Positions 31,760 to 47,163 of a DNA stretch of 64,000 nucleotides are shown here, one piece after another. This stretch comes from Ferroplasma acidarmanus Fer1 (GTDB taxonomy: Archaea > Thermoplasmatota > Thermoplasmata > Thermoplasmatales > Thermoplasmataceae): NCBI RefSeq assembly GCF_000152265.2, contig NC_021592.1:1116001-1180000 (forward strand). The letters are read 5' to 3'. How positions within the stretch are numbered: the first letter of the stretch is position 1; each line of letters begins with the position of its first letter. Position numbers and translations under genes: made by a program. The notes under the pieces are model-generated. The model made no database searches, was not told the origin of the DNA, and worked only from the letters and a program-made list of their open reading frames with translations.

Positions 31760-31895
31760 TAGTCTTTCATTGATAACAACCTTATAAACATTTCATTTTT
31801 ATTGTCTTGATCATTAATCCTGTAAGTTTAATAGCTATAAATTTCATGGATTAGCCAATATATTTATTTAAGATTAACATAAAGATTAAGATTTA

Positions 31896-32789
31896 ATGCC
31901 AAGTAAAATAGCTATATATATAGAATACTCAAAACCAAAGGTCTGGTGGCTTCTAGTTTTTATTGCTTTTGGTGGGGCTATACTGGCTGTTAATAATTTT
32001 TCTTTTAATAACATAATAATGATACTTGTGGCTATTGCAGCTGTTACAATGGGGTCAATGGGCGCTGAGGGTTTGACAAATTACATTGACCTTGAAATGG
32101 ACTCTACAATGGAAAGAACCAAAAATAGGCCATTGCCAACTGGCGAGATAACCAAAAAACAGGCTCTTATGTTCGGCTACTCCCTTGCAGTACTGTCTGT
32201 GATAATACTGCTGGCATTCAGAAGATTCATAGCATCTATATTCATGTCAATCGGGATATTTGACAATGTATTCATCTACAGTTATCTTCTTAAAAAGGTT
32301 TCACCCTACAGTATTATTTATGGTGGCTTTTCCGGCGCTTTTCCCGTCCTTATAGGATGGTATACTATAACATCAGACTTTTCATGGCTTCCATGGATAT
32401 TATTTTTCCTTGTCATGTTCTGGATTCCCGTTCATGTATGGAGCCTTGCATACAGATACAGGGAAGATTATAAAAAGGCAAATGTACCAATGTTTCCAGT
32501 CACTCATTCCGACAGGTCTACAGCAATTGCCATATCATTTTCATCAGTATTACTGATAGTATTCTCTTTAATACCCTATTTTATGGGGTTTTACAATCTT
32601 GTTTATCTTATACCAGTAGCAATTTTATCAATTCCTGTAATAATATTCTCATACAATTTCATAAAAAATCCAGGGAGAAAAACCTCTTTCCGGCTGTTTG
32701 TGTATACTGCGCCGTATCTCACATTTGTATTCACCCTTATTATAATATTGAACGTGTTGCGGCTATTAAATTTACTTCATTCTGCCTGA
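31896..32789 (+). CDS. ctaB: Heme O synthase (protoheme IX farnesyltransferase)
   Basis: Membrane prenyltransferase of the UbiA family that adds farnesyl to heme B for a terminal oxidase. 297 residues with about eight to nine helices. The first Asp-rich motif is 'NYIDLEMDSTMERTKNRPLP', close to the CtaB/CyoE form; the second region 'YRYREDYKKANVPMFPV' is specific to this enzyme among UbiA proteins. ATG at 31896 gives a normal short N-terminus. Functionally connected with hemLCD at 10-13 kb, but transcribed alone. Confidence 0.92.
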   Translation: MPSKIAIYIEYSKPKVWWLLVFIAFGGAILAVNNFSFNNIIMILVAIAAVTMGSMGAEGLTNYIDLEMDSTMERTKNRPLPTGEITKKQALMFGYSLAVLSVIILLAFRRFIASIFMSIGIFDNVFIYSYLLKKVSPYSIIYGGFSGAFPVLIGWYTITSDFSWLPWILFFLVMFWIPVHVWSLAYRYREDYKKANVPMFPVTHSDRSTAIAISFSSVLLIVFSLIPYFMGFYNLVYLIPVAILSIPVIIFSYNFIKNPGRKTSFRLFVYTAPYLTFVFTLIIILNVLRLLNLLHSA

Positions 32790-32903
32790 GGGTACCAATC
32801 AAAAAATTAATAATAAATGAATTACTTAATATAAAAGCATGTTATGCACATATGTTGAATCAACCAGTAATTGATAATTGCATAGCGTGATAGAGGTAAT
32901 TGA

Positions 32904-33479
32904 ATGGAACAAGTTAAAGATATAGTATTCCCAGGTGACATAATAGCCAAGGAGGAAGAATACCTTTCAGGAAAGAATACACAGGACATTGATGGTGATG
33001 TCATATCTACTGCTTTCGGAAGAGTCAGCAGGGATGACAAATCTCTTACCATATCGGTTGATACATCCAGGCAGCCAGTAATAGTAAAGAGATATGACAT
33101 TGTATATGGCAAAATAATAAAAATATTAAACAAGGAGGCAGTAATATTGATTTCAGGGGTTGTAAAAGGAAATGCCCTTGTACCGGCCAACACAGAGGCC
33201 AGGCTTAAGTTGCCAATTCCCAACAAAACTATGTATTCTCATATTATTACTCTTGGAGACCTTGTAAGGGCAAAAATTATAAGTACACGACCACTTTATG
33301 CCACAATATTTGACCCCAATCTTGGTATACTGAAGAGCAAATGTACAATATGCAGGAGCGACCTAGTTGCAGAGAATGGAAAACTATACTGCAGGAACTG
33401 TGGGAGAGTCGAACAGAGAAAAATTGCCTCAGATTATGGCAATATAAATATATCAGGTGTTAATTATGAAAGAAGCTGA
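32904..33479 (+). CDS. csl4: Exosome RNA-binding subunit Csl4
   Basis: Cap protein of the archaeal exosome. 191 residues in the usual order: an N-terminal barrel starting 'DIVFPGDIIAKEEEYLSGKN', an S1 domain ('YDIVYGKIIKILNKEAVILI', 'GDLVRAKIISTRPLYATIFD'), and a C-terminal zinc ribbon with cysteines in 'CTICRSDL' and 'CRNCGR'. It overlaps the next small ORF by 14 bases. The run csl4-small protein-lsm-arcS suggests an RNA-metabolism operon. Confidence 0.95.
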   Translation: MEQVKDIVFPGDIIAKEEEYLSGKNTQDIDGDVISTAFGRVSRDDKSLTISVDTSRQPVIVKRYDIVYGKIIKILNKEAVILISGVVKGNALVPANTEARLKLPIPNKTMYSHIITLGDLVRAKIISTRPLYATIFDPNLGILKSKCTICRSDLVAENGKLYCRNCGRVEQRKIASDYGNINISGVNYERS

Positions 33480-33624
33480 TAAAATAAAGGACGTCCAGGA
33501 GCTTTCCAGAGAAGTTAGGGATATGAGAAAGGAAATAGATAGTATGAAGGAGCTTTTAGGTGGCCTGATAAAAGTCATGATGGACCATGACAATCAGTTT
33601 AACGACGAGGATGAATATAATTAG
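33466..33624 (+). CDS. 52-residue coiled-coil protein between csl4 and lsm
   Basis: A short ORF starting with an ATG inside the csl4 end and stopping 9 bases before the lsm ATG. The product begins MKEADKIKDVQELSREVRDM and continues with a heptad-like run (M/L at spaced positions around 'RDMRKEIDSMKELLGGLIKV') and an acidic tail 'NQFNDEDEYN'. The perfect fit between the two genes, overlap with csl4 and absence of any other use for the sequence argue that it is translated. I do not recognise the family; it may be a small partner of the exosome or LSm ring. Confidence 0.7.
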   Translation: MKEADKIKDVQELSREVRDMRKEIDSMKELLGGLIKVMMDHDNQFNDEDEYN

Positions 33625-33633
33625 GTGAATAAA

Positions 33634-33849
33634 ATGGCAACATTACCAATGAAAATGCTTGAGGAAAATTTAAACAAAAAAGTTACGTTATTATTAAAGG
33701 ACAACAGGTCGCTTGTAGGTACACTGGTTGGGTATGATGAGTATATGAACATGACCCTGGACGATGCAGAGGAGAACGGAGAGGTTCAGAGAAAAATCGG
33801 CAAAGTCATCATACGTGGAAGCAATGTGGTAAGGATCACCACAAAATAA
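33634..33849 (+). CDS. LSm (Sm-like archaeal) protein, second paralogue
   Basis: 71-residue Sm-fold protein: Sm1 'KVTLLLKDNRSLVGTLVGYD' then 'YMNMTLDDAEE', and Sm2 'GKVIIRGSNVVRITTK'. The ATG at 33634 is favoured over GTG 33625 because an AGGTGA ribosome site lies 5 bases before it. Compared with the copy at 6643, this one has a shorter N-terminus and matches the common archaeal SmAP1 form. It is embedded in the csl4-arcS cluster. Confidence 0.94.
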   Translation: MATLPMKMLEENLNKKVTLLLKDNRSLVGTLVGYDEYMNMTLDDAEENGEVQRKIGKVIIRGSNVVRITTK

Positions 33850-33887
33850 TTTTTAAAAGTATATATAATCTGTTTTAATAGCATCCT

Positions 33888-35462
33888 ATGCCTGAAAAGA
33901 TAAAAGACAAACAATACGTGATGGGATTCACATGGGCAGGATACAGAAATGGAAAAAGATTCCCAATTTTATTAAACACATTTTCAGATGACTATAAAAA
34001 TGAGAAGGATAGTATAGAAATATTGGGAGAAAAATTTCAAAAAAAAATATACTATCCATCCTTCCTTAGCGGCGAAAAAATTATTGAAGGGAATGATATA
34101 ATCATAATATACAATGGCCTTGAATTAATACAGAGGCCAGTGCACCTCGTTTCGTTTCTTATGGAATTACGGAAAAAATACGGTTTCACAAAAATGTTTT
34201 ATCTCCAGGGAATTTCAGATCCATATCTTATGCCGGTACTGTCCTATCTTGGGGTCAATATTTTTGACGATCTGTATATAAGAAAGGAAAGCAGGGAACA
34301 TATAAAATACAACGTTGCCGGGAAATCAAGAGTTGATTATGAACCCTTTGAAGAGAACATACAATTTGCAGAATCTATACTGGAATCAATTTTTGTCTCA
34401 ACCCGGGATAACACATTACGGGAAATAGTAGAAAAAATTGCCATATCTGGAAAGGCAATGGAAATATTGAGAATAGCAGACACAAGATATTATGAAGATT
34501 TTTCCAGTGTATTTCCATCAAGGACACCCTATATCCAGGCCAACTCCCTGGAGTCACTCAACAGGCCTGATATTGTTGCTTACAGAAATAAAATATCATC
34601 CTATGTAAAACCAGACCGCAGGAATATTGCACTTCTGCTTCCATGTTCCGCCAAAAAACCCTATTCTGATTCAAAAACCCATAAGAAAATACTTTCAGGA
34701 ATATGGCAGTACAGAAGATATCTCCACGAATTGATTGTTACATCCCCCGTTGGGCTAGTTCCCCGGGAGCTGGAAAAGGGATACCCCGCCCGTTTTTATG
34801 ATATACCTGTCATAGGCACATGGTATGAGGATGAAAAACTCATGATGAAAAATCTCATTTCTGCATATTTTAACAAAAATAGATATGAAGATGTAATAGC
34901 ATATATACCGGAGGACCTTGATTTTGTTCGTGATGCCATACCAGACAATGCAAAAATAATAGAGGGAAAAGTTACAGATGATAATAATATAGCAAGGCTT
35001 GCAACTGTTTTGAAGGACACCGTGACAGCAGAAAGTCAATATGCCAAGAAACTGGATGATTACCGTGCTTTATTGAGGTTTCAATTTGGTGACTGGATAA
35101 TTCCATACATTTCCAATGTAAAGTTAATAAACAGTTTCCATCAGGACATGATTGTGGAGGGCAGCAGAATACTTTTCGTGTACAATGAATCCATAGGGCG
35201 TTTTTCCATTACTCCGGAATCGGGAAAATTTTTCCTTGAAAATGATAAATTCAATGTTTCAATAGATGATTTCAGGCCCACATCTACTGTATATGCCATG
35301 GGCATTCAGAATGCCACACCGGATATAAAAGCCTTTGATGAGGTCATAATGACATACAACAATGAATTAAGGGGGACCGGTACAGCATTAATGCCATCAA
35401 GGGCCATGGTAGACCTGAATAACGGTGCGGCTGTAAAGGTAAGATCGGGAATTAGGAATTAA
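33888..35462 (+). CDS. arcS: Archaeosine synthase ArcS (TGT-like with PUA domain)
   Basis: Completes archaeosine (G+) at position 15 of tRNA by converting preQ0. 524 residues. The hallmark 'LLPCSAKKPYSDSKTHKK' is near residue 250 of the core, 'LIVTSPVGLVPRELEKGYPA' follows, and a C-terminal PUA domain is seen in 'FNVSIDDFRPTSTVYAMGIQ' and 'NNGAAVKVRSGI'. The N-terminal part is a TGT-like barrel that lacks the catalytic aspartates, as in other ArcS proteins. A TATA-like AAGTATATATAAT at 33857-33870 precedes the ATG by about 25 bases, so it may have its own promoter. Confidence 0.9.
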   Translation: MPEKIKDKQYVMGFTWAGYRNGKRFPILLNTFSDDYKNEKDSIEILGEKFQKKIYYPSFLSGEKIIEGNDIIIIYNGLELIQRPVHLVSFLMELRKKYGFTKMFYLQGISDPYLMPVLSYLGVNIFDDLYIRKESREHIKYNVAGKSRVDYEPFEENIQFAESILESIFVSTRDNTLREIVEKIAISGKAMEILRIADTRYYEDFSSVFPSRTPYIQANSLESLNRPDIVAYRNKISSYVKPDRRNIALLLPCSAKKPYSDSKTHKKILSGIWQYRRYLHELIVTSPVGLVPRELEKGYPARFYDIPVIGTWYEDEKLMMKNLISAYFNKNRYEDVIAYIPEDLDFVRDAIPDNAKIIEGKVTDDNNIARLATVLKDTVTAESQYAKKLDDYRALLRFQFGDWIIPYISNVKLINSFHQDMIVEGSRILFVYNESIGRFSITPESGKFFLENDKFNVSIDDFRPTSTVYAMGIQNATPDIKAFDEVIMTYNNELRGTGTALMPSRAMVDLNNGAAVKVRSGIRN

Positions 35463-35590
35463 TATCCACTACACTCAAACCTTATGTATTGTTATAGTGC
35501 CTCCGTTTCATTCGCCTGGTAGTCACATCTTAATATTTTCCACATCCTGTTCTTTACTTATTCACTGCATAATTACATTCGCATTCCTGT

Positions 35591-36718
35591 CTAAACTCGC
35601 TCTACAAATTTATTATCATGCCTGTTTATTGTTTCATATACGTCTTTTCTAAAGAGATAAGTTTCTGGAGATAATCCGTTTTTCAAAGTATCCCTCACCA
35701 TTGTTCCACTGAAATGAACTCTATCTCCATCCACATGGGAACAATCCCGCGAAGTTGCCAGCTGTTCGCACTTCTTGCAGTAAAAGACCTCATCCATATT
35801 CATGATTTCTATGCCAAGTTCAAAGGCCTGGAGATTTTTCTGGGCGTCATATGGTCCATAAAAGTTTCCGATACCAGCGTGATCCCTTCCCACTACAAAG
35901 TGGGTGCACCCGAAATTCTTTCTCATGATTGCATGTATCATGGCCTCTCTGGGCCCTCCATATGACATTTCATAGTGAAGGGGTGAAAAGAGGACTCTGT
36001 TTGAAGGGTAATAATTATTTATGAGGGTATCGTATGATTTCATAATAATCTCGTCCCTGTAATCACCCGGTTTCTTTTTACCAATTACAGGATTTATGAA
36101 AATGCCGTCCGTAACACGCAGTGCAGTTCTCTGCATCTCTTCATGCCCTCTGTGTGGAACATTTCTTGTCTGGAATCCAGTAACGGTTTTCCACCCTCTT
36201 TCCAGAAATATCTGCCTTGTGTCCACCGGAAAAAGTGTTTCTTTCAGGAATGGAATTTCTGGAAGGTTAGCTGACTTGATTTCCCCGGCCATACATATAC
36301 CCGTACTTTCCCTGATGTTTCTGACACCCGGATGGTCGGTTGAGGTAGTTCCAAATACTTTCCGGCAGTATTCAATCCTGTCATATCTGTAAATATCTGT
36401 TACATCCATTATGGCAATTACCCCTGAGTTCTGGCTTAACCTGACAGTATCACCTGCTCTTACACATCTGAATTCTTTCTCTCCTATGTCCAGTGTGTAT
36501 GGAATGCTCCATGGAAGACCATTTTCCAGACGTTGGTTCTCAACCACAGAATGGAAATCACTTTCTCCCATGAATCCCTTCAAAGGACTCAGGATTCCCA
36601 TCTTCATATTCATTATCCTGATGGCAGTACCGTAGCTAACTTCAATTGTATGGTGTGCTTCCCTATCACTGACATCAGGGATATTAACAAGTTTTCCACC
36701 ATGCGCTGAGAGATTCAT
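35591..36718 (-). CDS. sat: Sulfate adenylyltransferase (ATP sulfurylase)
   Basis: Activates sulfate to APS. About 375 residues from ATG 36718, which yields the normal start 'MNLSAHGGKLVNIPD'; an upstream TTG at 36748 in the same frame lies inside cysH and is less likely. Nucleotide-binding motifs are 'GFQTRNVPHRGHEEMQR' and 'FVVGRDHAGIGNFYG'. A zinc site typical of archaeal/bacterial Sat is 'CKKCEQLATSRDC'. The order is cysH then sat, with the sat ATG 14 bases past the cysH stop. Confidence 0.95.
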   Translation of the reverse strand: MNLSAHGGKLVNIPDVSDREAHHTIEVSYGTAIRIMNMKMGILSPLKGFMGESDFHSVVENQRLENGLPWSIPYTLDIGEKEFRCVRAGDTVRLSQNSGVIAIMDVTDIYRYDRIEYCRKVFGTTSTDHPGVRNIRESTGICMAGEIKSANLPEIPFLKETLFPVDTRQIFLERGWKTVTGFQTRNVPHRGHEEMQRTALRVTDGIFINPVIGKKKPGDYRDEIIMKSYDTLINNYYPSNRVLFSPLHYEMSYGGPREAMIHAIMRKNFGCTHFVVGRDHAGIGNFYGPYDAQKNLQAFELGIEIMNMDEVFYCKKCEQLATSRDCSHVDGDRVHFSGTMVRDTLKNGLSPETYLFRKDVYETINRHDNKFVERV

Positions 36719-36731
36719 ATTTGCCGGAGAG

Positions 36732-37469
36732 TTAATCAACAATATCACCAGAATTCTTTCCCAAATTAAGATCTGTATTGACGCCTCCTGTCAAATGAAG
36801 GCCGCATTCCTTTACGCCGTTCTCCCACCACCACCTTCCAGATCTTTCGTCATCATCCTTTCCCACTGCCTTTGTACATGGCTGGCAACCTATGCTCTTA
36901 TAGTTCTGGTCAAACAGAATGTTGTATGGAACTTTGTGAATACTCACATATGACCATATTTCATCCCTGCTCCAGTCCAGAAGTGGATTGACTTTCCAGA
37001 CATTGTGATCCCTTACATATTCAACTTTTCTGGCATTTTTTCTTGCAACAGTCTGTTCTGCCCTTATTCCTGTGATCCAAACCGACCTTTTGCGAAGTAT
37101 ATTTTTAAGTGGTTTTACCTTTCTCACATTACAGCAAAAATGGCGGTTATCTAACGAATGGTAGAAAAGATTGATTCCTCTGGAATTGATCATGTCCTCA
37201 ACATCTTCTCTTTCAGGGAAATATATTTTTAAATCAATACCCATCTCCGACCTTACCGTTTCCATAAGCTGGTATGTTTCATCAGGGAGTCTTCCTGTAT
37301 CTATAGTCGCAATTTCAACATTAATATTATTTCTGGCAATCATATCTGTGATGACCATGTCTTCCAGCCCCAGGCTTGAAGTGAACACAGCACCTTTTCC
37401 ATAATATTTCCCAATTTTTCCCAGCATTTCAACCGGATTCAGATCCTGTAAATCCAAATATTCTTCCAT
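36732..37469 (-). CDS. cysH: Adenylylsulfate/phosphoadenylylsulfate reductase (CysH, iron-sulfur type)
   Basis: Reduces activated sulfate to sulfite with thiol donors. 245 residues. 'AVFTSSLGLEDMVITDMI' is the P-loop-like start; 'HFCCNVRKVKPL' and 'SIGCQPCTKAV' give the two cysteine pairs of the [4Fe-4S] cluster that marks APS-type reductases; 'KECGLHL' carries the catalytic cysteine. Since no APS kinase lies nearby, direct APS reduction is likely. Divergent from the ComA-type gene by 47 bases and followed by sat. Confidence 0.93.
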   Translation of the reverse strand: MEEYLDLQDLNPVEMLGKIGKYYGKGAVFTSSLGLEDMVITDMIARNNINVEIATIDTGRLPDETYQLMETVRSEMGIDLKIYFPEREDVEDMINSRGINLFYHSLDNRHFCCNVRKVKPLKNILRKRSVWITGIRAEQTVARKNARKVEYVRDHNVWKVNPLLDWSRDEIWSYVSIHKVPYNILFDQNYKSIGCQPCTKAVGKDDDERSGRWWWENGVKECGLHLTGGVNTDLNLGKNSGDIVD

Positions 37470-37516
37470 CTTCTATAATTTTCAATTTATTGAAATAATT
37501 ATCAGAATGGGAAGTT

Positions 37517-38572
37517 TTGAACCGTTATGGGCAATATAGGGACAATGCGAAAACCATATACCAAACATCTCCTTTATGTACTGTGAATATTAACAGACTT
37601 TCTGAAAATATTATCAATGACAAAACCTGGAACAGTTCAATGGGGAAAAATATGCTTCTGGACAAACTTTCTTCAGTGGATATGGATGTTATTTCCAGCC
37701 TTAGGGAAAGAATTTATGTTATGAAGATAGGTTGGACGACTTCAATGTTACTGGATGAAAAAACACTGATCAACAGGATAAAAAGATACAGAGATCTAGG
37801 AATTGATGTAAGCCCAGGAGGTACAACACTTGAGATAGCCTATGCGAAAGGCCATCTGGAACGAACTCTTTCAAGTCTTCTCCAATATGGATTTTCTCAC
37901 CTGGAAATCAGTGAAGGAGTTATAGACCTCCCAGACTCCCAAAAGAAAAAAATTGTTGATTTTGCAAAATCAAATAACATCCCTTTCACCATGGAAGTTG
38001 GAAAAAAGAGTGAAAAAAACCAGCTCAGCCTGGATGAAACCATTGAAGGGGTAAATCGCGATCTGGAATACGAACCTGATGTTGTCATAGTAGAGGGAAG
38101 GGAAACTGGAAAAGGTGTGGGAGTATTCGACATTGAAGGATTAATAAAATGGGACTGGGTAACCCGGCTTGCTGAGAACTTCCCGATTGAGAAACTCATG
38201 TTTGAAGCGCCTGTAGAAAGACAGCAGGTAGAGCTTGTGATCAGGATGGGTAACACGGTGAATCTTGGAAACATCGCTCCTGCAAGTCTCGCAGCGCTTG
38301 AGACCCAGAGACTCGGGCTAAGGGGGGACACCTTCGGGATTCCCTCTTCCTCCACTTCTGTTGAGGGCCCGCCATCAAATAAATTTATATATTATGTTAT
38401 TTCGGACCATGGCCCACTGGATCAGGCGGGAATAATGGATCTTACAGGCTTGAACAGAAAAACCGTTCAGAACGCTTTGAAGGAACTTGTCTCAAGTGGC
38501 ATTGTGAGGGAATCATTCTACAGAAATGACTTGAGAAAACGTATTTACAGTGCTTCATCCAATCTCCGGTGA
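37517..38572 (+). CDS. Phosphosulfolactate synthase (ComA-like) fused to a winged-helix domain
   Basis: Residues about 60-275 match ComA, which adds sulfite to phosphoenolpyruvate: 'MKIGWTTSMLL', 'IDVSPGGTTLEIAYAKG', 'HLEISEGVIDLP', 'VIVEGRETGKGVGVFD', 'LMFEAPVERQQVELVI' and 'VNLGNIAPASLAALE..RLGLRGDTF'. Residues about 285-351 are an added winged helix ('GPLDQAGIMDLTGLNRKTVQ', 'LKELVSSGIVRESF'). The only usable start is TTG 37517, because the frame closes at TAA 37496. The neighbours sat and cysH supply sulfite. No other coenzyme M genes are visible. The fusion and the sulfite link suggest a sulfonate role or a regulator; this is inference. Confidence 0.85.
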   Translation: MNRYGQYRDNAKTIYQTSPLCTVNINRLSENIINDKTWNSSMGKNMLLDKLSSVDMDVISSLRERIYVMKIGWTTSMLLDEKTLINRIKRYRDLGIDVSPGGTTLEIAYAKGHLERTLSSLLQYGFSHLEISEGVIDLPDSQKKKIVDFAKSNNIPFTMEVGKKSEKNQLSLDETIEGVNRDLEYEPDVVIVEGRETGKGVGVFDIEGLIKWDWVTRLAENFPIEKLMFEAPVERQQVELVIRMGNTVNLGNIAPASLAALETQRLGLRGDTFGIPSSSTSVEGPPSNKFIYYVISDHGPLDQAGIMDLTGLNRKTVQNALKELVSSGIVRESFYRNDLRKRIYSASSNLR

Positions 38573-38626
38573 CAGATTCCACGTTCACCCCTATCTGGAG
38601 GAACTCTGATTTCCATGAGCCTGAAT

Positions 38627-39044
38627 CTATAGATTCTCCTGATTAACCTCCTGTGAATCCACATACCATTTCAGGATATCTAATGTGACCTGATCGGATG
38701 TTACAAGAAAGTAGTAAGGAGACCAGAACTTTCCCTTTGACAGTTTTTTCTTTATTTCATGGAATTTGCGCTGTATCTCCCTTGATGTTATTGTTTGACC
38801 GCATTGATGAATTGTGGTATGTTAAGGAGGAGTGTAACCTTGAAAGGCATGTGAAAGTGATCCTTACCTCATTCTACATACAGTATATACACATCAAAGG
38901 TTTCAGAAATCTCTCTGGTTTTAATCTTAAGGAAATCCACAACGGCATCATTTGTAAATACTTTCTTCCGGTATTTCACCGGCTAGATAAAGTGATATTA
39001 CAACGAATAACGGAGCGCGAACCTTTATCCAGGTAATATGCCAT
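38627..39044 (-). pseudogene. tnpA: Degraded IS200/IS605-type tnpA (Y1 transposase)
   Basis: Minus-strand remains of an HUH single-strand transposase. Reading across defects gives the N-terminal 'MAYYLDKGSRSVIRCN', then 'PVKYRKKVFTNDAVVDFLK', the HUH motif 'DHFHMPFKV', and near the end 'KFWSPYYFLVTSD' with 'LKWYVDSQ' holding the catalytic Tyr. At least two in-frame stops replace Trp codons (before PVKYRKK and after ILYVE), one frameshift lies near 38993 and another near 38800. No tnpB is next to it. Non-functional. Confidence 0.85.
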
Positions 39045-39656
39045 AGATAACTTTTTTCTGTCGCTTTTATCATATCACTGGTGGGAAGACTTCTCGCTCA
39101 CTGTGTTAAATGTGGTGTTCGTTTAATGACTTAATGCAAAATTATGGGATTAACAGTCAGCCAGAATAAGAATACCGAAATTTTCTTTATTGTAATTTAC
39201 ACAAAAATCCATTAGAATGAAACCCTCTGAGTTTATTATGTAGATGAATTTCTGGAAAGAACATTTAAACACTATTCTTATGTAATGAATAAGAGGAATA
39301 ACAGAAGTACCTGAATAAGGCTTCAACTCCTATAGAAAAGTACCAGTGGAGTACAGAGAATTCAAGCCTCATGGGGATAATATAAGTCTATGTTTAAACA
39401 AGTTCTGTCAGTTAAACAGGAAACCTCTGTGCTTTAGGAAGAGACACATCACATTGTTATCCTTCGTCAGATCCGTCATATTATCATGGTATATGGATGA
39501 CTGTGCCAGCATGTGTGTATGCTACACCAAATCTATTTTCCTAAAATATTTTTCACACGAATCTTTTCCTGTTTTTCATACATTATCAATTACATTACCG
39601 GATAAAGGTGAAATGGTAAGACAAACATTTATATATAGTCAGACGTTTACATTATT
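39045..39656. other. Gene-poor stretch, probably decayed mobile DNA
   Basis: About 610 bases between the dead transposase and the first surface-protein gene. I find no protein with recognisable motifs on either strand; a 117-codon frame at 39346 has a cysteine-rich, random composition. The last 30 bases hold the TATA box of the surface-protein gene. Boundaries of an element could not be drawn. Confidence 0.45.
39626..39638 (+). promoter_or_regulatory. TATA box of the surface-protein gene
   Basis: CATTTATATATAG is centred about 24 bases before the ATG at 39657, which matches a leaderless archaeal transcript and indicates that the gene cluster is actively promoted. Confidence 0.7.
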
Positions 39657-41240
39657 ATGCACCGTAGATATATTACATTTATATCCCTGCTGGTTGTAGC
39701 AATGTTCTCAATAATGCCCTTATCACAACTATCTTCTCCCTCTATTGCAATTGATTCAAATTCTCCAAATAAAATAAATCCATCTCTATCAAATGGGCTC
39801 TTAGGTGAAGTTGTAAATTCATGGCATGTATCAGGCAAAACATGTGCACCATCATCAGCAAGCATAGAGAGTGCAATTACACTTAAGATAGATGTAACAT
39901 CATTCTCAGAATCAAGTGGTGCAGGTGATACAGCACTGTACTTTATTGTATCAGGAGTAAATGTACATACAGTCTATATTGGCGGTACCGGTGTATATAC
40001 ATATACATGGGATGTAAACTCTATGCCTGGCAATATTAATTTCCATGCAGAATACCTTTCAGGATCAGAATTCTATTCGATGCATTCTATGGCACCAGAA
40101 CCATCAGTATTCTTCCACAATTCATATTCCACATTCGGCAATTCAAACATACATGTTGAGAAGTACATGAATGAGATGGGCTATGACGGGAATAATACCA
40201 TATACCTGTCGTCTCCAGACTCAGGAAGCTATTCAGTATACGGATATACAAATTTAGGAATTGCAAAAAACAGCATAAATGATTGTGGCAGCACTTCAAA
40301 TTACCAGAATGATAGCGTTATCCTAAAATCCATTTATGATATTACTAACAATAGTGGAAATCTTTCCATAACAATACCGTTAATATCAAGCGGAATATCG
40401 AATGATATTATTTTTCCAACATCAAATCCTAATAATCCCGATACATTTTATACTGCGTTCTACCAGAGAATAGGGTTGACAATGATAAATGCTCCGCCAG
40501 GTGCAAATACTAATATACAAAAATCTTACAATCAAGGATTAAACGTAACTGGTCCAAGCTGTAAGGGAATAACTCCAAAACAGGCCTACAGAAACATAGG
40601 CATTCAACTAATTTCCCAGCTGCCATGGGCTGGATATGTTACTGGCCAGTATTCCATATACAAAGATCTCTATGCACTGTCCGGGATTGGGGAACATATC
40701 CCTGACGCAATTGGCAGCGGATCAGTATTTGAGGCATATACCATTAATGGTGGCAATCCATGTACTGATGGCCATGGAAAAAATGTATTTGGAGGCATAG
40801 AGCTTGTAAAAATAGATATTCCACTTAACGAATTAAAACATTCATTCAGAATAAATATGTTTTCTACAAATTATTATGAGTGCGTTGGTCCTACAGGGAT
40901 AATCAAGAGCGCAAATGCGTCAGAAACCATAAATGCAGTTACTTCCTCGGCAATATACGGCACAGTGGGATTAAAACCGGGATGTTCAGATGGAAATCAT
41001 AATTATGACACATCACTTAACTCTAATGTTTATATAAAAAGCGTAAATAGTGGTAATTTTTACAAAGTTCCTATAAAAAATGGAAATTATTTATTCTTCG
41101 CTAAACCCAATACTAAATATGAATTATTTTACAGGAGCGGATCTAATTTTGAAAAATTTAAAGATAATTCGAATTCAATTATTTCATATATAGACTCTAA
41201 AAATCCTGGACAATCCACTTCAATAAATTTATATGAGTGA
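39657..41240 (+). CDS. Secreted cysteine-containing surface protein, function unknown
   Basis: 527 residues with an N-terminal signal peptide (MHRRYITFISLLVVAMFSIM). The body is rich in Ser, Asn, Thr, Tyr and Gly with several N-x-S/T sequons and isolated Cys (GKTCAPS, NDCGST, PSCKGIT, NPCTDG, YECVGP, PGCSDG) that may form disulfides. The last 100 or so residues form a domain starting 'SAIYGTVGLKPGCSDGNHNY', shared with the next gene. No membrane anchor at the C-terminus and no thermopsin active-site motif were seen. It overlaps the following gene by 8 bases (ATGAGTGA). Confidence 0.75.
   Translation: MHRRYITFISLLVVAMFSIMPLSQLSSPSIAIDSNSPNKINPSLSNGLLGEVVNSWHVSGKTCAPSSASIESAITLKIDVTSFSESSGAGDTALYFIVSGVNVHTVYIGGTGVYTYTWDVNSMPGNINFHAEYLSGSEFYSMHSMAPEPSVFFHNSYSTFGNSNIHVEKYMNEMGYDGNNTIYLSSPDSGSYSVYGYTNLGIAKNSINDCGSTSNYQNDSVILKSIYDITNNSGNLSITIPLISSGISNDIIFPTSNPNNPDTFYTAFYQRIGLTMINAPPGANTNIQKSYNQGLNVTGPSCKGITPKQAYRNIGIQLISQLPWAGYVTGQYSIYKDLYALSGIGEHIPDAIGSGSVFEAYTINGGNPCTDGHGKNVFGGIELVKIDIPLNELKHSFRINMFSTNYYECVGPTGIIKSANASETINAVTSSAIYGTVGLKPGCSDGNHNYDTSLNSNVYIKSVNSGNFYKVPIKNGNYLFFAKPNTKYELFYRSGSNFEKFKDNSNSIISYIDSKNPGQSTSINLYE
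40950..41006 (+). repeat. 57-bp identical block, copy A
   Basis: Begins GCAATATACGGCACAGTGGG and is identical to 41818-41874. It encodes the start of the shared C-terminal domain of the two adjacent surface proteins. Identity at synonymous positions points to recent duplication or gene conversion. Confidence 0.9.
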
Positions 41241-42108
41241 TACCATGAACCTAAAATCCCATTATAAAATAATAATTTCGATTATAATTGTGATAATACT
41301 ATTCCTGCCACTGATTATCTACTATTACCCATATAATAATACAGAATACAACAACAATGGTGAAAGTATCAATGTAAAATATTTCCATAATGAATATTCA
41401 ATATATGCCTGCATGTTTAACTCTAATTATTCTGCAAGCTCCTATTCCCTGGGCAATAGTGAATCATACCTGAATACAACATTAACAAACCCGGCATACT
41501 ATCAACTTGAAGGATGTTTAATATCCCATATAAATATAAGCATGAAAAACATCGATGCAAGGTATGTCTATATAGCAACTACAGGCGACAATAATAATCA
41601 ATATGTTCAGATAACAGGCACACATCTCCCAATTAACTGTAAACAAGAAGGGAATAAATGGATTAACAAATATAGTTCATTTGATAATCTCCACAGCATG
41701 GGTATAAACTTTGTTATCCCTAATTTCTACCTGCATAATGGTAATTATAATTTTACCCTTACTGTATCAGCTGGCAAACTGCATAACACATTCAATATCC
41801 ACACTGAGAAGGAGAGTGCAATATACGGCACAGTGGGATTAAAACCGGGATGTTCAGATGGAAATCATAATTATAATGTTTCATACAATTCAACAATGTT
41901 TGTTTACAATATTAACACAAGTTCATTCAAAATTGTAAATATACAAAACGGTCAATTTTATTTCTTTACAAATCCAGGGGATTGGTATAAGATATATTAT
42001 TTAAACGGCGAAAATCTGAGTATGTTCAAGGACAATAGTGCTAATAATATTACTATAATAAAAATGCCATCAAGAATGATTTCTGAGGAATATTATATTT
42101 ATGAGTGA
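41233..42108 (+). CDS. Membrane-anchored surface protein sharing the C-terminal domain
   Basis: 291 residues. A single N-terminal anchor (IIISIIIVIILFLPLIIYYY) with a short positive start places the bulk outside the cell. The external part is Asn/Tyr-rich with sequons, then from about residue 195 the same 'SAIYGTVGLKPGCSDGNHNY' domain as in the upstream gene, identical over 57 bases of DNA. It starts at ATG 41233 (MSDTMNLKSHYK), overlapping the previous stop; ATG 41245 is an alternative. A third, broken copy follows directly. Confidence 0.72.
   Translation: MSDTMNLKSHYKIIISIIIVIILFLPLIIYYYPYNNTEYNNNGESINVKYFHNEYSIYACMFNSNYSASSYSLGNSESYLNTTLTNPAYYQLEGCLISHINISMKNIDARYVYIATTGDNNNQYVQITGTHLPINCKQEGNKWINKYSSFDNLHSMGINFVIPNFYLHNGNYNFTLTVSAGKLHNTFNIHTEKESAIYGTVGLKPGCSDGNHNYNVSYNSTMFVYNINTSSFKIVNIQNGQFYFFTNPGDWYKIYYLNGENLSMFKDNSANNITIIKMPSRMISEEYYIYE
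41818..41874 (+). repeat. 57-bp identical block, copy B
   Basis: Second copy of the block at 40950-41006, in the second surface-protein gene, in the same reading frame of the shared domain. Sequence on both sides diverges at once, so the identical part is sharply bounded. Confidence 0.9.
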
Positions 42109-42757
42109 TACCATGACCCTAAAATCCCATTATAAAATAATAATTTCGATTATAATTGTGATAATACTATTCCTGCCACTGATCATCTACTATTACCCAT
42201 ATAATAATACAGAATACAACAACAATGGTGAAAGTATTAATGTAAAATATTTCCATAATGAATATTCAAGTCTCTCTTAAACATTGGATGGGTATATAAG
42301 CAATCCAATTTCTTCACTCCCATAGAAATGTTGGTATGGTGAATTCCCAGGCAAGAGAGAATTTCATTGTCTCTTAATTATTCTGGATTCTTGAAATCCT
42401 GGGATTACCAGAACACCGCCTTGGGCCGGTTATTTGCCCATTCTGCAAGTGCCTTGTTCAGATCAGGAACTATTGTTGTGTTGATTAAATCGATGAAATG
42501 TCTCTTCATTCCAAGATCTTTTCTATATATATACCAACTCTTTCACGTATAGATCAACTTTCACCTCTAGTACATACAATATTTCTCACGAGACGGTGTT
42601 TTAGGCAATAATTCACTGCCTAGCATAATAAGTATGAATCACCCATTTATATACCCATTAAGGGTTGATTAGATCCATATTCAATATATGCCTGCATGTT
42701 CAACTCTAATTATTCTGCAAGCTCCTATTCCCTAGGCAATAGTGAATTATACCGTTA
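42101..42757 (+). pseudogene. Truncated third copy of the surface-protein gene, split by an insertion
   Basis: 42101-42269 repeats 41233-41401 with only about three substitutions (MSDTMTLKSHYK start, same anchor), and 42677-42757 continues the match to about 41468 before it ends abruptly. A 407-bp element separates the two parts. The reading frame now stops at TAA 42280 after 59 codons. The rest of the gene, including its C-terminal domain, has been lost, so a second event removed the 3' part. Confidence 0.9.
42270..42676. mobile_element. 407-bp MITE-like insertion with 8-bp target duplication
   Basis: The interrupted gene copy defines both ends exactly. The target octamer ATATTCAA occurs at 42262-42269 and again at 42677-42684. 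ATGGGTATATAA begins exactly 19 bases in from each end (42288-42299 forward and 42647-42658 inverted), so the ends are imperfect terminal inverted repeats of about 30 bases. The inside has no intact transposase; a 34-codon minus-strand frame (MKRHFIDLINTTIVPDLNKA) could be a fragment of one. An 8-bp duplication suits a DDE-type element moved in trans. Confidence 0.85.
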
Positions 42758-43181
42758 AAATGTTTTCTGTGGATTAATAGTATGCATGCCCCTGTAACTA
42801 TTTCGGGCATACTCGGGTATAATGGTTTTAACCATATACAATTGTGGTTACAATACTTAATTTTGACATATAAATTTACATCTAGATTAACAGGATTTTT
42901 CAGTTCGGGCAGATTATGCGTCATCAGGTATGAATGCACGAATTCATAAAATAGCTCAATAAAGACCTGGTAAGTCCTTCTTGTATTCAAGCTGGATATC
43001 TGAGGCTCGCTTATACATCATCTCGTATAATAATTTTAATCACAACACCATTATGTAAGTTTAAGTTCTATCGGTGAAACAGGATTACTCACTGCTTTAG
43101 CATGAGACAGCTCACCGTGGCAAATATTGTCTAACTTTACATATAAGGGTATCTGTTAATTTAGAGATTGATTATAATTAT
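42758..43181. other. Unassigned fragment after the broken copy
   Basis: About 420 bases without an intact gene. On the minus strand two adjoining frames, one starting MMYKRASDIQLEYKKDL and one with 'YEFVHSYLMTHNLPELKNPV', could be joined by a single frameshift near 42957, which looks like a decayed protein, perhaps from an insertion sequence; I do not recognise the family. The right end holds the AT-rich promoter region of iorA. Confidence 0.4.
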
Positions 43182-45071
43182 ATGATATATATGGCAGACC
43201 TTGTCCAGTTCATTGATAGTAAAATTGAAAAGAACCCAGTTTTTCTTCTCGGCAACGAAGCGATTGCACGTGGAGCAGTCGAGGCTGGAATCGAATTTGC
43301 ATCCAGTTATCCGGGTACCCCTTCAAGTGAAGTAGGAGAGACGCTTTCTCATGTTGCAGACAAACTGGGGATCAAATTTCTCTATTCAGTAAACGAAAAA
43401 GTGGCACTTGAAAGTGCCTTTGCCGCCTCCATTTCAGGAATGAGATCACTGGTTTTCATGAAGCATGTGGGTTTGAATGTTGCGTCCGATCCCTTCGTCA
43501 GTATTGTCTATACAGGGACAAGGGGTGGGCTGGTAATCATGACAGCCGATGATCCTTCAATGTTCTCTTCACAGAATGAACAGGATAACAGGCATTACGC
43601 TGATCTTGCACACATTCCAATGATTGAACCTTCAAATCCCCAGGAGGCCAAAGACTTCGTGAAAGCAGCCTTTGAACTTTCCGAAAAGTACCATATTCCA
43701 GTCCTGTTCAGGACAACAACAAGAGTTAGCCATATGAGAGGTCCGGTCAATGTTGGAGAAATACCCAAAATAAAGGGAACCAGAAGAGTTTTTGAAAGAG
43801 ATCCAGAAAGATTTGTAAGCCTGCCAGTCAACGCAATTGGATTGAAAAAAATGCTCATGGAAAAACTTGGTGAAATTGCAGTGGAATCTGACATGTCATT
43901 CATGAATAAGGCGCAATCTAACATGGTCAGTGAAATTGGTGCAATAACATCAGGTTCAGGATACAATTCCCTTATGGATGCAGTAGCTTCTCATTCTATT
44001 GAAATAGACGTCCTGAAGATCGGCTTCACCAACCCTTTACCCCGAGGAATGATTGCCGAATTTCTGAGAAAACATGATAAAGTGGTGATAGTTGAAGAAC
44101 TGGACCCCTACATGGAAGAAAAGATCAGGGCAATTGCGCAGATAAATGGAATCAGAACCAGGATCTATGGAAAACTTGATGGTTATTTTCCCCTAGTTTA
44201 TGAACTGAATCCGGATGCTGTGCTTCAATCCCTGGCCAGAATTTTAAATATGCCAGGATATATTCAGGGCAAATCACCAAAAACAGGAGTGGATCTCCCA
44301 CCCAGGCCACCTGTTCTATGCCCAGGATGTCCCCACAGGGGTACTTATTACGTGGTTAAAAGATCAGTCAGAATGTCAAACATCAAAAATCCAATATATG
44401 CATCAGATATAGGTTGTTATTCACTTGGTACTTATGACCCATTTGATGAGGCAGACACCTTAATATCCATGGGGTCGTCTATTGGTGTAGCAAATGGTTT
44501 TTCCATGGTTACCGATCAGAAGGTCATAGCATTCATAGGAGATTCAACCTTTTACCATTCTGGCATTCCGCCATTAATAAACGCCGTGCACAACAACCTG
44601 AACATGCTTGTTATTATAATGGATAATGGCACAACAGCAATGACAGGTCAGCAACCAAATCCAGGGAATGAATTGGATTATAATGGAAAGCCCGTTACTG
44701 GAATTCCAATAGAGGATGTTGTGAGGGGAATTGGTGTAAGTAATGTATCTTTGCTGGATCCCTATAATCTCAAGGAGTCTTTTGCAACTATAAACAGGTC
44801 GTTGCACCAGACCGGAGTTTCAGTTATCATCTCAAGAAGGGAATGTGCCATAATTCGTGATAGAAAACTCCGTAAGAATGGTGAAATTGAGATTTATACG
44901 GTAAACCAGGATAAGTGCGGCAAATGTATGAATTGCGTGGAGAATTTCTCGTGTCCAGCACTGTTTATAGAAAAGGGTGAGATACAGATTAACCCCTCGA
45001 TTTGCGATGGTTGTGGGGTATGTGCTGAACCACTTGTCTGCCCATTCAATGCAATAGAGGTGAAGAAATGA
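43182..45071 (+). CDS. iorA: Indolepyruvate:ferredoxin oxidoreductase, alpha subunit
   Basis: TPP-dependent subunit that oxidatively decarboxylates aryl pyruvates from aromatic amino acids. 629 residues. 'ALESAFAASISGMRSLVFMKHVGLNVASDP' in outline is the usual N-terminal block, the TPP region is 'FIGDSTFYHSG...MDNGTTAMTGQQPNPG', and the C-terminus is a 2[4Fe-4S] ferredoxin domain with 'CGKCMNC' and 'CDGCGVC'. ATG 43182 or 43191 could start it. It overlaps iorB by 4 bases. Confidence 0.95.
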   Translation: MIYMADLVQFIDSKIEKNPVFLLGNEAIARGAVEAGIEFASSYPGTPSSEVGETLSHVADKLGIKFLYSVNEKVALESAFAASISGMRSLVFMKHVGLNVASDPFVSIVYTGTRGGLVIMTADDPSMFSSQNEQDNRHYADLAHIPMIEPSNPQEAKDFVKAAFELSEKYHIPVLFRTTTRVSHMRGPVNVGEIPKIKGTRRVFERDPERFVSLPVNAIGLKKMLMEKLGEIAVESDMSFMNKAQSNMVSEIGAITSGSGYNSLMDAVASHSIEIDVLKIGFTNPLPRGMIAEFLRKHDKVVIVEELDPYMEEKIRAIAQINGIRTRIYGKLDGYFPLVYELNPDAVLQSLARILNMPGYIQGKSPKTGVDLPPRPPVLCPGCPHRGTYYVVKRSVRMSNIKNPIYASDIGCYSLGTYDPFDEADTLISMGSSIGVANGFSMVTDQKVIAFIGDSTFYHSGIPPLINAVHNNLNMLVIIMDNGTTAMTGQQPNPGNELDYNGKPVTGIPIEDVVRGIGVSNVSLLDPYNLKESFATINRSLHQTGVSVIISRRECAIIRDRKLRKNGEIEIYTVNQDKCGKCMNCVENFSCPALFIEKGEIQINPSICDGCGVCAEPLVCPFNAIEVKK

Positions 45072-45700
45072 CTTATAATATTAGACTTGCTGGGGTTGGT
45101 GGGCAGGGGATAATAACCGCAGGAAATATAATCTCAGAAGCTGCAATGAGGTCAGGGCAAAAAGTTATCATGTCAGAGATTCATGGGCTCTCGCAAAGAG
45201 GCGGTTCTGTCACAGTCGACGTGAGGATTGGAGACTGTTATGGGCCCATTATTTCACAGAGTTCCTGCGATCTTGTCATTGGGCTTGAATTAATAGAAAC
45301 ATTTCGTGCGATCGAATCCTTTGAAAACGTTGGAACAGCACTTATGAGCACAGAGAAAATCAATCCAATATCCCTGAGCATGCATAAGAAGGAATATCCA
45401 TGCTTGGAGGACCTGATGGAAAAATACGGCATGGGAACAAGGATATACCCTGTTGAGGCAGGAGAGATAGCAATGGAAGCAGGATCATCAAAAGCGGTTA
45501 ACATAGTAATGATCGGTGTAGCACTTGGTTTAAATCTATTTCCCATGACTGCCGATGAAGTTGTTTATGTTTTAAAAGACACATTTCCCGAGAAAAAACT
45601 CGGCATTAACATGAAAGCACTTGAACTTGGAATTGCACTGTCTGGGCGTATGAAAACCAATATTCGGGAAAATTCAACAATACAGAACAGAAGTTCTTAA
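45068..45700 (+). CDS. iorB: Indolepyruvate:ferredoxin oxidoreductase, beta subunit
   Basis: 210 residues, the gamma-domain partner of IorA. 'YNIRLAGVGGQGIITAGNII', 'SEIHGLSQRGGSVTVDVRIG' and 'VIGLELIETFRAI' are typical. The ATG overlaps the iorA stop (ATGA), so the two subunits are made together. Downstream 210 bases have no gene. Confidence 0.94.
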   Translation: MTYNIRLAGVGGQGIITAGNIISEAAMRSGQKVIMSEIHGLSQRGGSVTVDVRIGDCYGPIISQSSCDLVIGLELIETFRAIESFENVGTALMSTEKINPISLSMHKKEYPCLEDLMEKYGMGTRIYPVEAGEIAMEAGSSKAVNIVMIGVALGLNLFPMTADEVVYVLKDTFPEKKLGINMKALELGIALSGRMKTNIRENSTIQNRSS

Positions 45701-45757
45701 CTACAGGAAGCAGAATGCCGTTTCAAATGTGCACGTTTCAAATCCCAGCAGAGTACT

Positions 45758-45795
45758 GAGATGCCTAAAAGGTGTCCTTAACTCACAGGCATCTC
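45758..45795. repeat. Perfect 9-bp inverted repeat after iorB
   Basis: GAGATGCCT at 45758-45766 pairs with AGGCATCTC at 45787-45795 around a 20-base loop. A direct repeat CGTTTCAAAT lies just upstream (near 45719 and 45735). It may be a transcript-end hairpin or the end of a lost element. No function can be assigned. Confidence 0.6.
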
Positions 45796-45912
45796 TTAAG
45801 GTGTGAAACTTCTCCATAAATCCTATAAAAACATAATATCAGAATATGTAGTATTGTCCATTAACAGTCAGAATCCCATAAAGAATTATTAATAATATTG
45901 GGATTACCTCCC

Positions 45913-47163
45913 ATGAGTATTCTGATCAAGGATGGAACAGTAATCACAGAAAATGATACCAGGGATATAATACATGGCAACATTCTGGTAGAGGGAAATA
46001 AAATAGCATATGTGGGAAAAGAGAAACCAGACCATGATGAGGAAATAAATGCTAAAAACAGGGTTATCATTCCAGGATTCATTAATACACATACACATGT
46101 TGGCATGAGTGGATTCAAGGGGTTACTCGATGACATTGTACTTTCAGAATTTCTGGACAAAACGTCAAAACTTGATTCACAGCGGACAGATGAAGGCATT
46201 TATAATTCCAGCCTTCTTGGCATGAACGAGATGATAAACTCAGGAACCACATCCTTTGTTGACCTTTATTATTCAGAAGATATTGTAGAGAAAGCTGTGG
46301 AGAAAATCGGCATGAGAGGCTTCCTTGCATGGGCCACCCTTGATCAGGAATTTACTACACAGAGAGGCGACCCTGTAAAAAATGCAGAGGCCTTTATCAG
46401 AAAGGAACACCCGGGCACTGTAATTCCTATGGCCGGCATTCAGGGCATATACGTATCATCTGATGAGAACTATTACCGCGTAAAAGAACTGGCTGAAAAA
46501 TACAACGTTATGGTGCACACACATCTTTCTGAGACCAGAAAAGAGGTATATGATTTTGTAAAAACACATAACGAACGGCCTGTGGAACATCTTGGCGCAA
46601 TAGGTTTCCTGTCAGATAGAATTATTGCTGCCCACTGCGTCTGGATTACGTTGAATGAAATCAAGATTCTTTCAAAATATAAGACTTCAGTTTCATGGAA
46701 TGCAATAAGCAATGCCAAGCTTTCATCCGGTGGCATAGCACCTGTACCAGAACTGTTATCCAATAATGTGAACGTCTCTCTAGGAACCGACAGCTCAGGA
46801 AGCAACAACTCTCTGAACATGTTTGAGGAGATGAAATATTCCGCAATATCAATAAACAACGACCGCTGGTCAGCCGACACTGTAAAATCACAGCAGATCA
46901 TGGATATGGCCACCAGAAATGCGGGAATTGCATTAAAATCCCCCATAGGAATAATTCGTGAGGGATACCTTGCCGATCTGGTTATACTTGACATGAACAA
47001 ATACAATACAATGCCATATAATGATTCTAATATAGTCAATAATATAGTGTTTTCAGCCAACCCTGAGAATGTAGAATCGGTTATGGTAAATGGAAAAATT
47101 ATCCGCTCAAAGAATTTTAACACCACGGAAGAGTCAAAATTTGCGGAAGTAAATTATTTATAA
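45913..47163 (+). CDS. mtaD: 5-methylthioadenosine/S-adenosylhomocysteine deaminase
   Basis: Amidohydrolase of about 416 residues that deaminates the adenine of MTA or SAH. Metal ligands are seen in 'NTHTHVGM', 'VHTHLSET', 'AAHCVW' and 'GTDSSGSNN', and the family composite barrel ends 'GYLADLVILDMNKYN'. ATG 45913 is chosen; an in-frame TTG at 45898 is less likely. With MtnA at 25726 it suggests methylthio-group salvage by an inosine-type route in archaea. Related chlorohydrolases and guanine deaminases are less good fits. It is 19 bases before the DUF6159 gene. Confidence 0.87.
   Translation: MSILIKDGTVITENDTRDIIHGNILVEGNKIAYVGKEKPDHDEEINAKNRVIIPGFINTHTHVGMSGFKGLLDDIVLSEFLDKTSKLDSQRTDEGIYNSSLLGMNEMINSGTTSFVDLYYSEDIVEKAVEKIGMRGFLAWATLDQEFTTQRGDPVKNAEAFIRKEHPGTVIPMAGIQGIYVSSDENYYRVKELAEKYNVMVHTHLSETRKEVYDFVKTHNERPVEHLGAIGFLSDRIIAAHCVWITLNEIKILSKYKTSVSWNAISNAKLSSGGIAPVPELLSNNVNVSLGTDSSGSNNSLNMFEEMKYSAISINNDRWSADTVKSQQIMDMATRNAGIALKSPIGIIREGYLADLVILDMNKYNTMPYNDSNIVNNIVFSANPENVESVMVNGKIIRSKNFNTTEESKFAEVNYL

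Follow-up and report, generated by a model that had tools for sequence, protein, structure and literature searches.

The analysed window, a stretch of 64,000 nucleotides from Ferroplasma acidarmanus Fer1, encodes a protein in which a phosphosulfolactate synthase (ComA) barrel is joined to a C-terminal MarR-type winged helix and whose gene diverges from a sat-cysH pair. We propose that this fusion is probably a bifunctional enzyme-regulator: the ComA barrel would sense or consume sulfite, together with phosphoenolpyruvate (PEP), and the winged helix would control sat-cysH. The predicted chain of enzyme domain and winged helix is conserved, as in RbkR-like archaeal bifunctional regulators, and so is its linkage to the presumed regulated pathway.

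The open reading frame on the forward strand (37517-38572) is open throughout and contains no stop between the ComA and winged-helix domains. Together with the domain models, the open frame bears out the preliminary description of the two domains as parts of one continuous protein. The TTG at 37517, taken there as the start of a 351-residue product, had to be given up, as a relative from another genus (locus L002 in genome G345, 93% identical) has two in-frame stops among the first 22 codons, and its open frame begins at the codon that corresponds to the GTG at 37583 of the window. Alignments with other homologues begin only from about residue 15-46 (351-residue numbering). Because of the upstream stops in L002 and its frame opening at the equivalent codon, GTG 37583 is most likely the true start, which would give a protein of 329 residues. 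With this start, the divergent gap to cysH would measure 113 bp and not the 47 bases reported previously. The features of the locus are collected in Table 1.

Table 1. Coordinates of the fusion gene, its domains and its surroundings (window positions).
Feature	Position	Strand	Remarks
Island: sat-cysH-fusion module, two ORFs without Pfam match, iorAB-like genes	35466..45877		About 10.4 kb; missing in same-species genome G034
sat, ATP sulfurylase (sulfate to APS)	35591..36748	-	17-bp overlap with cysH
cysH, thioredoxin-type APS/PAPS reductase, sulfite-making	36732..37469	-	CCxxRK and GCxxCT...ECGLH cysteine motifs present
Divergent intergenic region between cysH and fusion gene	37470..37582		113 bp; presumed regulatory in both directions
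ComA-winged-helix fusion gene	37583..38572	+	Most likely start GTG, 329 aa, from comparison with L002
ComA (phosphosulfolactate synthase) TIM-barrel domain	37640..38329	+	Pfam match, conserved residues
MarR-type winged helix-turn-helix	38369..38569	+	Weak single models, profile match to MarR structures

The Pfam ComA model (PF02679) matched residues 42-271 of the protein with an E-value of 7e-61 and 206 bits, against a curated cut-off of 25.2. ComA of M. jannaschii (PDB 1qwg; a further solved homologue is PDB 1u83), which shares the PF02679 barrel and the conserved residues with the fusion, could be aligned over residues 59-274 (E 7e-49). The phosphosulfolactate synthase equivalog model TIGR03849 gave 219.6 bits, under its 280-bit cut-off. 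Residues assigned to the ComA site by conservation, without coordinates, were largely retained: K43, G45, W46, GGT74-76, E79, E103, S105, E133, K137, E168, R170, E171, E205, Q211, Q212, N227, R240 and R244 (M. jannaschii numbering) are kept in 57-59 of the 59 fusions compared, and G135 likewise in nearly all 59. The exception is Lys209 of M. jannaschii, a lysine in all five canonical ComA proteins compared (M. jannaschii and four others), which is Glu in 59/59 fusions (Glu234 in 351-residue numbering, codon 38216-38218 in the window); W212 and W214 are fusion-specific tryptophans. Because Lys209 is replaced by Glu in every fusion, catalysis may differ from that of canonical ComA. Structure prediction from the window protein and two relatives reached a pLDDT of 35. 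Most of the conserved site residues are lost in L039 (genome G008), a plain ComA-family protein.

Models of MarR and winged helix-turn-helix (wHTH) domains fell at about residues 291-346, each singly under its cut-off. A profile of 27 wHTH sequences retrieved MarR-family structures in the PDB first, namely PcaV, HosA, SlyA and AdcR (E 5e-4 to 9e-3). Invariant positions in the winged helix are Q303, R314, T316, Q318, D338, R340 and Y344 (351-residue numbering). The fusion resembles these MarR regulators in its wHTH and in a wing motif D..D.RR..Y; it differs from them in having a ComA barrel as the partner domain and no recognised MarR dimerisation helices. Comparison of the window with L002 gave dN 0.027 and dS 0.518 for the ComA part (dN/dS ~0.05), and dN 0.006 and dS 0.80 for the linker plus wHTH (dN/dS ~0.007). 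The wHTH is under strong purifying selection and is the most constrained part of the protein.

Matches to the fusion protein were obtained in 103 of 400 genomes of the same class. About 90 loci, mostly with 38-54% identity and belonging to families f1 (that of the window), f14 and f15, cover most of the ComA domain, and some of the remaining hits are short alignments to the wHTH or weak ones to ComA. A single further fusion, in family f53, has lost several site residues. The arrangement, for which no described counterpart had been known in the preliminary description, is not unique, since full-length homologues occur across three Thermoplasmata families; both the two-domain architecture and its linkage to cysH were found again in other genomes. 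Two outcomes had been named as fatal to the earlier interpretation, namely loss of the active-site residues without homologous fusions elsewhere, or a frameshift; instead, the residues are kept and fusions are widespread, and a frameshift joining two genes is ruled out by the full-length homologues across families. In a phylogenetic tree, canonical ComA stands apart from the fusions, which form two large clades whose deep order is unsure owing to rooting and long rows. The search for fusions beyond Thermoplasmatota consisted of one close-relative scan of genome contigs.

For the comparison of gene neighbourhoods, 60 stretches, each at most 20 kb long, were taken at the best matches; 59 fusion loci were counted, the window among them, and these are mostly the best-scoring ones and not a random sample. 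The proposed tie of the fusion to cysH-sat was substantiated: cysH lies directly divergent from the fusion gene in 39/59 loci and is followed by sat in 28 of these, and the flanking genes differ. By family, the divergent cysH is present in 29/32 loci of f1 and 4/4 of f14 (33/36 together) and in 6/23 of f15. Within a second clade, three f15 loci have a distant CysH (33% identity, PF01507 E 1e-46) in the divergent place, and two others have an APS kinase there; the majority of f15 fusions have no cysH beside them, and a close CysH is missing from several genomes of this family. In the f15 relatives L110 (10423-12447) and L113, the fusion diverges from a type I phosphodiesterase gene and/or an APS kinase gene. 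Within family f1, CysH was detected in 29/30 genomes with the fusion and in 0/20 without it (Fisher p 4e-13). A contig of the congeneric genome G333 (L063) bears an interrupted cysH that lacks about 76 bp corresponding to window positions 37012-37087, which may be an assembly error.

The divergent region contains TTTCAA-TTTA-TTGAAA at 37480-37495; on its own, this sequence lacks significance. Inverted repeats in 29 intergenic regions, searched for a palindromic operator, did not exceed those in dinucleotide shuffles (combined p 0.48). A ATTCATATA box is conserved about 20-30 nt upstream of the fusion gene in one subclade and may simply be a TATA box.

The module resides on an island flanked by a tRNA-guanine transglycosylase-like gene and an amidohydrolase-like gene. 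In G034, a gap of 10 bp separates the matches to window positions 31857-35465 and 45878-47163. The flanks are only ~80% identical to G034, yet its SQD1 protein (see below) is 100% identical, and window positions 33429-40199 are 98-100% identical to G333 where aligned; these values suggest that the region surrounding the island was imported from a G333-like congener. L002 keeps the order sat-cysH-ComA and then iorAB-like genes, with 87% DNA identity, although the SQD1 of its genome is 58% identical to that of F. acidarmanus. At 39657-42108 (G+C 0.336), two large ORFs without a Pfam match both contain the motif AIYGTVGLKPGCSDGNHNY; the island as present in L002 lacks these two ORFs.

ATP sulfurylase and CysH have been noted in a Thermoplasmatales genome as being of unclear function (PMC10354927). 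Sulfite reductase (PF01077) was found neither in the complete genome of the window nor in the majority of genomes that carry the module, in a search whose controls matched in 11/14 cases; it is missing from 27/29 CysH-bearing f1 genomes, the exceptions being G258 and G309. The frequency in CysH-bearing f1 genomes (2/29) does not differ significantly from that in CysH-less ones (5/21; p 0.12); the argument rests on the absence of PF01077 and not on an association with CysH. The F. acidarmanus genome encodes a homologue of UDP-sulfoquinovose synthase, SQD1 (G000:C1:474603-475739; E 9e-91 to Arabidopsis SQD1, 1qrr), as do 68/80 genomes overall, among them relatives without the module. The SQD1-type enzyme Agl3 of Sulfolobus converts UDP-glucose and sulfite into UDP-sulfoquinovose (PMC4388408). 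An N-glycan of Thermoplasma carries sulfofucose (PMC12448462, PMC12421959), a sulfosugar of unknown biosynthesis (PMC12421959).

The enzymes downstream of ComA were also surveyed. ComB (PF04029) is encoded in the genome of the window and in all f1/f14 fusion genomes tested, where it is unlinked to the fusion; each of the 20 fusion-less f1 genomes that were tested has it too, and the f15 fusion genomes tested lack it. The alpha subunit of sulfopyruvate decarboxylase (TIGR03845) had no match over the cut-off in 30 genomes, with 25 bits against a cut-off of 148 in F. acidarmanus itself. Because the decarboxylase is missing over the cut-off and ComB occurs in fusion-less genomes as well, that is, does not track the fusion, a role of the fusion in the coenzyme M pathway appears unlikely, and this candidate was rejected. 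In L122 (genome G402), by contrast with the fusions, ComB follows a plain ComA gene at a distance of about 130 bp.

The mechanism we favour, by analogy with RbkR, is as follows. Sat and CysH, transcribed divergently from the fusion gene, would make sulfite; the ComA barrel would bind this sulfite and PEP, possibly still forming phosphosulfolactate, and the C-terminal winged helix would bind the divergent promoter region, tuning transcription of sat-cysH and of the fusion gene itself to the sulfite level. The direction of this control may be repression under plentiful sulfite, which is our guess. With sulfite reductase missing from most of these archaea, Sat-CysH would supply sulfite for sulfonation, most plausibly in the form of UDP-sulfoquinovose destined for sulfosugar glycans, and the fusion protein would hold the toxic sulfite in check. 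The earlier suggestion, in which the protein would sense or use sulfite and control the neighbouring operon, gains strength because sulfite reductase is mostly absent and an SQD1 homologue is present. A bolder version, in which an active phosphosulfolactate synthase is its own transcription factor for sulfite production and sulfate is reduced only to sulfite, all of it for sulfonation and never to sulfide, we put forward tentatively, at slightly short of an even chance.

The protein could instead be solely a regulator, in which the ComA barrel senses a ligand (sulfite, PEP or phosphosulfolactate) and retains no useful synthase activity. The change of Lys209 to Glu in all fusions and the fusion-specific W212 and W214 agree with such a loss, as do the degenerate site of the f53 fusion, the lack of linkage to ComB and coenzyme M genes, and the missing ComB of the f15 fusion genomes tested. 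The other ComA residues, however, have been kept near-completely over deep divergence, which exceeds the usual need of a ligand pocket, and we think a purely regulatory protein is possible but rather doubtful. It is unlikely that the fusion is primarily an enzyme, with sat-cysH-ComA forming a sulfate-to-sulfonate route (PEP and sulfite to phosphosulfolactate, then ComB to sulfolactate) and a winged helix serving assembly or minor autoregulation. Such a route would fit the conserved ComA site residues, the missing sulfite reductase and the ComB genes of all f1/f14 fusion genomes tested, but not the occurrence of ComB in all the fusion-less f1 genomes tested or its absence from the f15 fusion genomes tested, nor the wHTH being the most constrained part of the protein and a divergent placement typical of regulators. 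An accidental arrangement, either of two unrelated genes joined by frameshift or of hitch-hiking neighbours on a mobile island, is hardly credible: the island is missing from a same-species genome and the module is highly identical between genera, but the domains are not separated by a stop, the same fusion with the same divergent neighbour recurs across families with differing flanks, and chance is excluded by the ~90 loci, the clade structure and both dN/dS values.

The bifunctional enzyme-regulator proposed here has parallels in characterized proteins. Relative to ComA, the fusion carries the additional C-terminal MarR-type winged helix, has Glu in place of Lys209, scores below the TIGR03849 cut-off and occurs in a genome without a coenzyme M decarboxylase over the cut-off. 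RbkR, represented by Thermoplasma TA1064, is a riboflavin kinase and a regulator whose M. jannaschii counterpart is an enzyme only (PMC8305020). The fusion is similar to RbkR in that an archaeal enzyme domain is fused to a winged helix and an enzyme-only counterpart exists in M. jannaschii; it differs in the enzyme and pathway concerned, in the position of the wHTH (N-terminal in RbkR, C-terminal in the fusion) and in that regulation by the fusion is inferred. To judge from titles, abstracts and passages, none of the papers retrieved on phosphosulfolactate and Thermoplasma appears to describe this fusion protein, and a sulfite-sensing trigger enzyme is a kind of protein that we did not find described in the literature searched.

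Our analysis suggests what the orphan ATP sulfurylase and CysH of Thermoplasmatales may do, namely provide a route from sulfate to sulfite that ends in sulfonates. SQD1 is a candidate sink on this route, leading to the sulfosugar seen in Thermoplasma glycans. If the proposal is true, sulfite would become one of the few metabolites known to be sensed by an archaeal enzyme that doubles as a transcription factor.
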